64,000 nt of DNA from Ktedonobacteraceae bacterium (GTDB taxonomy: Bacteria; Chloroflexota; Ktedonobacteria; Ktedonobacterales; Ktedonobacteraceae), in assembly GCA_035653615.1 (NCBI GenBank), contig DASRBN010000039.1, positions 62,001-126,000 of the forward strand, written 5' to 3'. A program made the position numbers and the translations under genes. Of the stretch, positions 40,255-42,418 are shown piece by piece. Each line of letters begins with the position of its first letter. The first letter of the stretch is position 1. The notes below the pieces were generated by a model, which worked only from the letters and a program-made list of their open reading frames with translations, did no database searches and had not been told where the DNA came from.

Positions 40255-40331
40255 GTAGCATTGAGATCACAGCGTCTGTGTTTCTCGGCACTCAATTAAG
40301 ATTGGCGTTGCACAAACACAAGGAGATGACT

Positions 40332-40751
40332 ATGGCAAACTGGTTCGATCAAGTAACCAAAACCCTGGCCGACAGGAAGCTGGACCGCCGTCAAGCGATG
40401 AAGACCATCGCGGGCACCGTAGCAGGCGTGGCACTCGCATCGTATCTGCCTGAAACCGCGCTGGCGAAGGTGAAGAAACACGGGTGTTCGGTGCAAGCGT
40501 GTGGTACCTACACGAACTGCCCCAAGGACAAGAACACCAACTGCTACTGCTTTGCTCAGCTCAACGGTAGCGCAGGCTGCGGATGCGACTATGCTTGCGG
40601 CTCTGCCCCGCAGTGTATTAATGGCACCCAGTGTCCTAAGGGCTATTACTGCTCGATCACCTGCTGTGGCACCATGGACTGCGTCCAGAAGTGTAACAAG
40701 ACCTGTACACTGAGTTCGAGTCATGTGGGCAAGACGGCTTCCGGCCACTAG
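40332..40751 (+). CDS. Exported cysteine-rich protein with Tat-type signal (16 Cys)
   Basis: A 139-residue precursor. The N-terminus has R19-R20 in KLDRRQAMKTIAGTV, followed by a mild hydrophobic stretch and an ALA-type cleavage site near residue 45, like Tat signals of methylamine dehydrogenase small subunits. The mature part of about 94 residues holds 16 cysteines (52, 57, 63, 71, 73, 83, 85, 89, 95, 101, 107, 111, 112, 117, 121, 125) and no tryptophan, so it cannot form a TTQ cofactor. The even number suggests eight disulfides. AAGGAG six bases before this ATG excludes longer starts. The next gene is a MauE-thioredoxin fusion, its likely maturation factor. Family unknown to me. Confidence 0.88.
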   Translation: MANWFDQVTKTLADRKLDRRQAMKTIAGTVAGVALASYLPETALAKVKKHGCSVQACGTYTNCPKDKNTNCYCFAQLNGSAGCGCDYACGSAPQCINGTQCPKGYYCSITCCGTMDCVQKCNKTCTLSSSHVGKTASGH

Positions 40752-40768
40752 TTTTTCGGCGTTGCGCA

Positions 40769-40825
40769 ATTACGTATTGAACTTCAATGCGTAATAGTGC
40801 GGGGTGCAATAACGCACCCCGCACT
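40769..40825. terminator. Two tandem hairpins between the Cys-rich gene and its partner
   Basis: First hairpin: ATTACGTATTGAA (40769-40781) against TTCAATGCGTAAT (40783-40795), one wobble. Second: AGTGCGGGGTGC (40796-40807) against GCACCCCGCACT (40814-40825), perfect, loop AATAAC. No U-run follows, so partial read-through to the next gene is likely. Confidence 0.7.
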
Positions 40826-40876
40826 CCTGCTCAAAAACAGCGTAGCTATTTTTGCCACCGTCAGGAGGTTTCATCT

Positions 40877-42418
40877 ATGAGCATTTTGCTCCTGGTAGCT
40901 CGATGGTTACTCGCAGTGGTTTTTGTCGTGGCAGCTCTGGCAAAACTTGCCGACCTTAGAAGATCACAAAAGGCTATGCGTGACTTTGGGATCCCGGCTC
41001 CTCTTGCTGCGCCACTTGGGATACTGCTTCCTTTCGCCGAACTTGCTATAACCATTGCGTTGATAGTGACACCAATTACATTCTATGGAGCAATCGGTGC
41101 CCTCGCATTGCTCGCCCTTTTCATCATAGTTATCAGCGCGAATCTCTCACTTGGCCGTACACCGGACTGTAATTGTTTCGGGCAACTGCATTCGGAGCCA
41201 ATCGGCGCGTCTACGCTGATCCGCAACGTGATCCTTGCTGTGATTGCCGGACTGGTCGTCTGGCAAGGAGCCGCATATGGCAATGTAGGTGCGGATACGG
41301 TCGCCTTGATCTCCACGCTTTCGGCTTTCGAGGTGTTCGTGTTGATTATCTTGATTGTCCTGGCGGCAGTCGTTGCTCTGGAAGGCTGGCTCCTGGTGCA
41401 GGTAATGACGCAGCAAGGAACTATGCTGACCCGCATTGAAACGCTCGAAGGGCAAGCCGGTATTGGAGAGACCGGTCAGAAGCCAGTTATTGGACTACCA
41501 GAAGGTGAAGATGCGCCTGACTTTGCTCTACCCGATATCTTCACCGGGCGGATAATCACACTCAAGGATCTGCTGCCGAGCGATAACAGTAAAAAACCGG
41601 TGGCACTCACTTTCTCTTCTCCCAACTGCGGTCCCTGCAAGGCCATGATCCCTGATTACGTAGAATGGACTAAAAGATATGGCCATAAGGTTACGATGGC
41701 CATGATCACCCAGGGTACTGTTGAGGAGAATGTTGCTAAATTTGCCGAATTCGATGAGAAACCCCTCGTGCTTTTACAGCAAGATATGGAAGTCGCCCAG
41801 GCATATGGAGTGCGTGGCACACCTTCGGCAGTCGCAATCCGCTTCGATGGTTCAATTCATGGTGAAATGGCTCAGGGGGAGGGTGACATTAAAATTCTCC
41901 TGACAGAATTGACAACCGATTATTCGATGCCTCAAACCAATCCTCTTCTGGAGCCTAATCGTCCGACAGATGGTAGGGCATTTCCAACACCGCCAGAAAT
42001 CGGTGAACCTGCTCCCGACCTGCTCATGCTGGATTTTCAAGGCAACCTTCACAGGCTCTCTGATTTCCGTGGCTCTCCAACCCTGTTGCTCTTCTGGAAT
42101 CCAGGCTGTGAATTCTGTGGCATGATTAAGCAGGATGTGCTCGCCTGGGAGAAAAAAACACCCAAAGGCGCGCCGCAACTGGTCATTGTCTCTACAGGTG
42201 GCACCGCTAAGGACAACGATGTAGGCTTCCGCTCGCTCATGATCCAGGATGATACTCCCAGTCCTTTCAGCATCCTGCGCTGGTTCAAAGTGCCTATGAC
42301 CCCTGGCGGCATTCTTCTCGATGAGAATGGCGTCGTACTCGCCAAAGCGGAAGGCGCTATTGAGGTAATGGAGTTGTTCAAGCCCGTTAAAAGAAAGGGC
42401 AAACTGGCAACTGTATAG
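40877..42418 (+). CDS. MauE-like membrane domain fused to two thioredoxin-fold domains
   Basis: A 513-residue redox protein. Residues 1-175 form a MauE/DoxX-like domain with about five helices and the family motif DCNCFG (C98, C100) after SLGRTP. Residues 210-350 are a TlpA/MauD-like thioredoxin domain with C251-GP-C254 and cis-Pro P316 in RGTPSA. Residues 372-505 form a second one with C411-EF-C414 and TPG (P476). In Mau systems, separate MauE and MauD proteins are needed for disulfide formation in the periplasmic small subunit. Here all parts are in one chain next to a 16-Cys exported protein. AGGAGG eight bases before the ATG fixes the start. Confidence 0.9.
   Translation: MSILLLVARWLLAVVFVVAALAKLADLRRSQKAMRDFGIPAPLAAPLGILLPFAELAITIALIVTPITFYGAIGALALLALFIIVISANLSLGRTPDCNCFGQLHSEPIGASTLIRNVILAVIAGLVVWQGAAYGNVGADTVALISTLSAFEVFVLIILIVLAAVVALEGWLLVQVMTQQGTMLTRIETLEGQAGIGETGQKPVIGLPEGEDAPDFALPDIFTGRIITLKDLLPSDNSKKPVALTFSSPNCGPCKAMIPDYVEWTKRYGHKVTMAMITQGTVEENVAKFAEFDEKPLVLLQQDMEVAQAYGVRGTPSAVAIRFDGSIHGEMAQGEGDIKILLTELTTDYSMPQTNPLLEPNRPTDGRAFPTPPEIGEPAPDLLMLDFQGNLHRLSDFRGSPTLLLFWNPGCEFCGMIKQDVLAWEKKTPKGAPQLVIVSTGGTAKDNDVGFRSLMIQDDTPSPFSILRWFKVPMTPGGILLDENGVVLAKAEGAIEVMELFKPVKRKGKLATV

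Follow-up and report, generated by a model that had tools for sequence, protein, structure and literature searches.

A predicted Tat-exported cysteine-rich protein and a MauE-thioredoxin-thioredoxin fusion: a recurrent gene pair in Ktedonobacteraceae and a probable substrate-maturase couple

Two genes in the same orientation were characterized in the window, the whole 64,000-nucleotide stretch analysed here, which belongs to contig C39 of a Chloroflexota genome of 6.59 Mb; Ktedonobacter racemifer and Dictyobacter vulcani are members of the same family. The first gene is preceded by a Shine-Dalgarno-like AAGGAG at 40320 and encodes a small protein whose leader carries an arginine pair (RR, residues 19-20), a hydrophobic stretch after it and ALA-K46 (Table 1). 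The Tat signal model TIGR01409 scored 18.5 bits on this product against a cut-off of 16.7, and Pfam TAT_signal scored 14.9 bits against 22.7; on the strength of the TIGR01409 leader match the product was classed as a predicted Tat-exported protein. An earlier sequence-only reading had described an RR-type Tat protein with 16 Cys in 94 mature residues and no Trp, and its coordinates and motifs proved to be exact. Sequence searches of Pfam, NCBIfam, PADLOC and the PDB gave no relative of the Cys-rich domain, and Foldseek found no significant match for its AlphaFold model (pLDDT 69); the partial matches were weak (knottin-, EGF- or Dickkopf-like, best E 0.28) and were left unused. Our best guess is that this product is a knottin-like secreted effector or an envelope protein.

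The ATG of the second gene is preceded by AGGAGG, and its product was matched by PF07291 (MauE) over residues 1-129 with 100.4 bits (cut-off 27) and twice by the AhpC-TSA/thioredoxin models of Pfam. The motifs DCNCFG, CGPC and CEFC were located at residues 97-102, 251-254 and 411-414, respectively, and the AlphaFold2 model contained five membrane helices and two thioredoxin (Trx) folds. Hence, the claim that a single chain joins a MauE domain to two Trx folds was borne out by both Pfam and AlphaFold2. The closest structural relative of the Trx folds was ResA, and TlpA, CcmG and DsbF-type proteins were also related. Among 90 aligned homologues of the fusion, the Trx CxxC motifs were kept in 88-90 and the MauE CxC in 89. 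The MauD equivalog model TIGR02661 remained below its cut-off (46 bits against 188.6), no VKOR or DsbB domain was found in the fusion by the Pfam search, and the PADLOC anti-phage defence models did not match the window pair. From its domains and its model, the fusion is classed as a putative thiol-disulfide oxidoreductase with two CxxC Trx folds of the ResA/TlpA type.

The 125-bp spacer between the stop of the first gene and the start of the second (40752-40876) folds unusually well (z -7) and contains two hairpins. The core of the second one, TGCGGGG..CCCCGCA, occurs at only two sites in the 6.59-Mb genome, both of them spacers directly 3' of Cys-rich genes that precede a fusion; a third Cys-rich/fusion pair has a related spacer hairpin, and a fourth Cys-rich gene of this genome is followed by a perfect palindrome. 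The terminator scan gave no score to the spacer hairpin, which has no T-tract. These hairpins may serve to provide more substrate than enzyme message.

Table 1. Features of the gene pair in the window (window positions) and the other MauE loci of the same genome (contig only).
Feature	Position	Strand	Details
Cys-rich exported protein gene	40332..40751	+	139 aa; ATG 40332 to stop 40751
Tat-type leader, residues 1-45	40332..40466	+	RR at 40386-40391; TIGR01409 above cut-off, Pfam TAT_signal below
Mature 94-residue Cys-rich domain	40467..40748	+	16 Cys, 0 Trp; no Pfam, NCBIfam or PDB relative
First intercistronic hairpin, 12-bp stem	40769..40795	+	Folding
Second intercistronic hairpin, AGTGCGGGGTGC-AATAAC-GCACCCCGCACT	40796..40825	+	Folding
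Gene of putative MauE-Trx-Trx membrane thiol-disulfide oxidoreductase	40877..42418	+	513 aa; ATG 40877 to stop 42418
MauE domain, 4-helix membrane, residues 1-129	40877..41263	+	PF07291 E 1e-28
CxC of MauE, D-C98-N-C100-F-G	41168..41176	+	Both Cys in 89/90 aligned homologues
Fifth membrane helix, links MauE to Trx domains	41324..41398	+	Alignment, AlphaFold2
First Trx domain, ResA/TlpA type	41501..41869	+	CGPC at 41627-41638
Second Trx domain, weakly MauD-like	41990..42349	+	CEFC at 42107-42118
MauE locus C23			MauE, TM-Trx, 15-Cys RR-leader protein; second Trx and 9-Cys RR-leader protein
MauE locus C33			Trx, MauE, TM-Trx, 16-Cys RR-leader protein
MauE locus C37			MauE, 11-Cys RR-leader protein
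MauE locus C12			11-Cys protein, MauE-Trx
MauE loci C44 and C42			MauE, TM-Trx, 10-Cys peptide with non-RR leader
MauE locus C34			Only one of the ten MauE genes without a small Cys-rich neighbour

Three further homologues of the Cys-rich gene and two further full fusions were found on the same contig at C39:4000-12900, in the order Cys-rich, fusion; Cys-rich, fusion, Cys-rich. All three full fusions of the genome thus lie directly 3' of a Cys-rich gene. The four Tat-leader Cys-rich proteins of this genome have 16 Cys each, 13 of which are invariant, and the identity to the window copies is 45-51% for the Cys-rich paralogues and about 48% for those of the fusion; these pairs are old duplications in which the pairing was retained. 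Since the paralogues share 13 invariant Cys and both other full fusions follow one of them, the window pair is not a chance association. An isolated Cys-rich ORF on contig C15, without a Tat leader of its own and overlapping the end of a secreted-protein frame, was counted as the sole copy lacking a fusion. Furthermore, ten MauE genes of the genome exceed the Pfam cut-off and nine of them have a neighbouring small ORF with 9-16 Cys, in most cases bearing a Tat-type leader, as judged from ORFs by eye and by script rather than from curated gene calls.

Other features of these loci were also recorded. Most of the 28 other family genomes have one MauE gene or none (maximum five), compared with the ten found here. 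The Cys-rich and fusion genes at the start of the contig are interleaved with an array of PF04185 phosphoesterases of the phospholipase C/acid phosphatase type (L008:1-10523), and PF04185 genes also flank the fusions of L064 and of the Eremiobacterota locus L153. On contig C35 (G000:C35:248840-253112; L176:8841-13112, L015), a 1424-codon NRPS with condensation-like, adenylation and carrier domains carries at its C-terminus the last two MauE-type helices and a CGPC Trx domain 51% identical to that of the window fusion; this chain, unique among 29 family genomes, may have arisen by recent gene fusion or represent an NRPS tethered to the membrane. Another kind of Cys-rich peptide, whose members share a non-RR leader of about DRLxxKLGxxNxLLDxLxxRxxPxxxAxA-C, lies beside MauE in Ktedonobacteraceae (L191, L193, L204, L208, L217, L219, L221), and at L191:2557-3531 a signal peptidase I-like frame, seemingly fused to a Trx-like domain, is found beside MauE, Trx and a 10-Cys peptide.

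The recurrence of the pair was then assessed in other genomes. Among the family mates, a small Cys-rich ORF was present within about 1.5 kb at 12 of the 26 MauE loci fetched, again as judged from ORFs by eye and by script. A pattern scan of genome contigs with the Cys-rich protein alone was abandoned after it returned no relatives, the sequence being too divergent. A profile of the Cys-rich domain was positive in only two of 400 Chloroflexota genomes, both of which have fusions; in the second one, JAICWV01 (LS_FP_2_bin.70), the domain forms the end of a 29-Cys RR-leader protein and is separated from a fusion by one sulfotransferase gene. Altogether, five of the six known copies of the domain have a fusion no more than one gene away, in agreement with the co-occurrence proposed beforehand.

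Around 80 fusions from other genomes, 24 Cys-rich ORFs were counted in 149 kb at less than 1 kb from the fusion and 13 in 587 kb at more than 1.5 kb, an approximately 7-fold higher density near the fusions with a binomial p of 5e-9, which is optimistic because the 80 loci are phylogenetically non-independent. Under a stricter criterion demanding a Tat leader, the counts were 14 in 149 kb and 8 in 656 kb; strict neighbour criteria missed some partners and passed a few wrong-frame ORFs. With looser criteria, two near matches were judged spurious (L076 on the minus strand and L082), as were most of the far ones, which makes the enrichment estimate conservative on this point. On the fusion tree, the label for a Cys-rich neighbour (assigned by hand for L093, L115 and L153) changes about 11 times by parsimony, six of the changes being forced by well-supported branches. 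Fusion loci with such a neighbour were found in Chloroflexota, Thermomicrobiota, Acidobacteriota, Actinomycetota, Pseudomonadota, Nitrospirota and Vulcanimicrobiota, although several of these come from metagenome assemblies, in which an individual phylum assignment may be mistaken.

The partners of homologous fusions are mostly unrelated in sequence and have in common their leader type and Cys content. Moreover, 29 of the 80 fusions form one well-supported acidobacterial clade, located between der and tgt, in which no Cys-rich neighbour was found and the second Trx motif is often the DsbA-type CPHC; many Thermomicrobiales fusions likewise showed no Cys-rich neighbour within 1 kb. The folding system had been called dedicated, and this holds inasmuch as the pairing recurs, but not for fusions that adjoin unrelated Cys-rich proteins or for the many in the two groups just described that have no such partner nearby. 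The best explanation is that the fusion would act as a modular maturase for Cys-rich proteins, most of them exported by Tat, and would be paired locally with a single substrate. As a pairing it seems to be a folding-and-export module of general occurrence that has been little described.

Several arrangements in other bacteria are informative. Ktedonobacter racemifer carries, one after another, three short genes for Cys-rich Tat proteins, the fusion, tatA and tatC. On two Streptomyces plasmids, whose proteins are 95% identical, a single chain comprises MauE, a Trx domain (CGAC or CSAC), an RR-hydrophobic segment identified by eye and a 14-Cys tail, and on its sequence it is a putative Rosetta-stone fusion of the enzyme with a substrate-like domain. 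A Caballeronia megaplasmid encodes a TM-Trx-Trx protein and, directly after it, a Tat-leader protein with 16 Cys that weakly resembles the Streptomyces tail (E 0.002).

Additional variants were observed among the fusion loci. Thermomicrobiales fusions such as L084 and L089 are about 670-690 aa long with three CxxC motifs (CGPC, CGFC, CGFC), suggesting a MauE-Trx-Trx-Trx architecture. Three proteins (L062:5112-5831, L136:9366-9998 and L139:2-1523) each combine a PqqD-like N-region, for which the Pfam match was checked in L062 only, with an RR leader and a Cys-rich tail; the one in L062 adjoins a fusion and an NTP_transf_5 protein. A Stf0 sulfotransferase lies directly upstream of the fusion at L061:1423-2202 and L058:2101-4476, once fused to a GT2 glycosyltransferase. 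At L065:6025-8204 (G024), a MauE-Trx fusion ends after the fifth helix and an IS200/IS605-type transposase-like ORF comes directly next.

Taken together, the two genes of the window probably encode a substrate and its thiol-disulfide maturase, whichever the membrane face on which they meet. Tat would export the small protein, whose stability would need up to eight disulfides since 16 Cys in 94 residues leave little else for a core. Electrons would flow from the substrate Cys through the two CxxC Trx domains to the CxC in the membrane domain of MauE; the final acceptor would presumably be quinone or some other component of the membrane, and the two Trx domains may divide the work, one oxidising and the other isomerising. 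If the redox domains work on the cytoplasmic side, the disulfides would be put in before or during Tat export. The gene anatomy, the paralogous pairs, the recurrence over several phyla and the single-chain form were observed in the sequences, whereas we infer the electron direction, the acceptor, the disulfide number, the membrane face and the chemistry, the last from the domain families. Such a relay from substrate to membrane would fit the conserved CxxC and CxC motifs, and the CGPC of the first Trx domain, also typical of reducing thioredoxins, counts against an oxidative reading.

The membrane face of the redox domains was considered from the distribution of charged residues. According to the positive-inside rule, K/R-rich loops face the cytoplasm. 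Across 90 aligned homologues, K+R per loop amounted to 3.5, 2.2 and 3.1 on the side of the CxC and the Trx domains and to 0.01, 0.16 and 0.85 on the other, acidic residues offsetting part of this bias; the unfused MauD-like proteins have 0 K/R before their helix and 3.0 after it in 15 of 15 cases. Because of this bias and the rule, the redox parts would be cytoplasmic. In the Streptomyces chain, the RR segment comes immediately after the Trx domain, and the beginning of that segment must be cytoplasmic if the Cys-rich part is exported, and therefore this Trx domain would also be inside. We slightly favour a cytoplasmic location of the redox domains, with disulfides formed before or during Tat export. 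The oxidative system proposed from the sequence alone is retained as a probable maturase, but the textbook membrane side that it implied is not the one towards which the sequence evidence leans.

The same enzyme-substrate pair could also work outside the membrane after export, as VKOR-Trx does and as is usually assumed for MauD/MauE, and this has a substantial though less than even chance of being correct. The ResA, TlpA, CcmG and DsbF-type proteins that the fusion Trx domains resemble are extracytoplasmic in known cases, and the cytoplasm is reducing, which counts against a cytoplasmic face. A single-span TM-Trx-Trx homologue (L068) begins with MRRRD, which fits an N-in/Trx-out orientation, and the charges flanking the helices might serve a function instead of setting the topology. 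Action outside is opposed by the charge bias, which for MauE and MauD alike favours the inside, and by the Streptomyces chain. Tat generally prefers folded cargo. Short unstructured cargo of 100-120 residues is tolerated (PMC6708511), so prior folding is not strictly required and a short reduced protein could pass; an scFv Tat cargo needed cytoplasmic disulfides supplied by CyDisCo (PMC6708511). A more far-reaching reading, with a less than even chance of being correct, is that fused and unfused MauE/MauD-type proteins constitute a natural cytoplasmic pre-export disulfide system that hands folded Cys-rich cargo to Tat, its genes being scattered over several phyla and having radiated with many unrelated Cys-rich secreted proteins.

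A different role of the product, as a RiPP-like or bacteriocin-like secreted disulfide peptide modified by the MauE-Trx enzyme, seems unlikely here. The window pair comprises a Cys-rich precursor and MauE, and neither an ABC exporter nor a protease nor any further gene for modification lies alongside. Nevertheless, ABC transporters, signal peptidase I and LuxR-type regulators were read from ORFs near other MauE loci of this genome, and PqqD-domain Cys-rich proteins adjoin some fusions. In addition, decRiPPter (2020) yielded three candidate RiPP families in Streptomyces in which mauE accompanies precursors containing 8 or more Cys, and a role of mauE in modifying these precursors was suggested (PMC7794033). 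In those families, which are predicted RiPP clusters, MauE (and once MauD) is likewise the neighbour of a short Cys-rich precursor, and mau genes are missing (PMC7794033). The present loci differ in the MauE-Trx-Trx fusion, the Tat leader, the spread over several phyla and the paralogous pairs. Since it concerns the role of the product, this alternative is compatible with a maturase and its substrate.

It is rather improbable that the Cys-rich protein binds a metal or cofactor for whose loading the Trx domains keep the thiols reduced. CGPC is thioredoxin-like and ResA-type proteins reduce apocytochrome thiols, but the even number of 16 Cys in all four Tat-leader copies of the genome, their knottin-like spacing, the frequent CPHC of the der-tgt clade and the lack of a cofactor-insertion gene near the window pair argue against it. 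Finally, a remnant of a methylamine dehydrogenase (mau) operon, which the MauE domain and the weak MauD similarity of the fusion might evoke, was rejected as very improbable, since the genome has no PF02975 light chain, the Cys-rich protein has no light-chain match and its mature part has no Trp for TTQ. The heavy chain PF06433 was not matched in the genome by a search that was silent in control genomes too. The Mau-like neighbourhood, which had been noticed from the sequence, is real and conserved, and it has no dehydrogenase light chain.

MauD and MauE are known for the maturation of methylamine dehydrogenase, and MauE is usually annotated as a methylamine gene. The MauD/MauE of Paracoccus denitrificans share with the present pair a MauE with DCxCFG, a MauD-like membrane-anchored Trx and a Cys-rich Tat substrate; here, in contrast, one chain carries two Trx domains, there are several copies per genome and no dehydrogenase light chain, and the substrate is free of Trp and unrelated in sequence to that light chain. 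VKOR-Trx and DsbA/DsbB are comparable in having a membrane bundle, an extra helix leading to Trx folds and disulfide chemistry, but the membrane domain here is of the MauE/DoxX type with a CxC and the charge bias suggests the opposite face. The proposed logic, disulfides first and then folded export by Tat, is that of CyDisCo with Tat, which is engineered from Erv1p plus PDI (PMC9995818, PMC6708511), the natural counterpart here being only a proposal. The precedent for the present finding is the link between MauE and Cys-rich precursors made by decRiPPter; in the open-access literature searched, we found no report of a MauE-Trx-Trx fusion, of its link to Tat or of the multi-phylum pattern.

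The folding route of natural multi-disulfide Tat cargo is poorly known, because Tat usually takes cargo that is already folded and the cytoplasm is a reducing compartment. An enzyme-substrate pair that is compact and portable, found beside tatA and tatC in one Ktedonobacter species and in one chain in Streptomyces, makes this question directly testable. MauE is likely to have a much broader job than methylamine metabolism, and its neighbours provide a genome-mining handle for new disulfide-rich secreted peptides, for the making of which the pair could supply a natural tool. If the cytoplasmic MauE/MauD system is true, it would be the natural counterpart of the engineered CyDisCo-Tat route.
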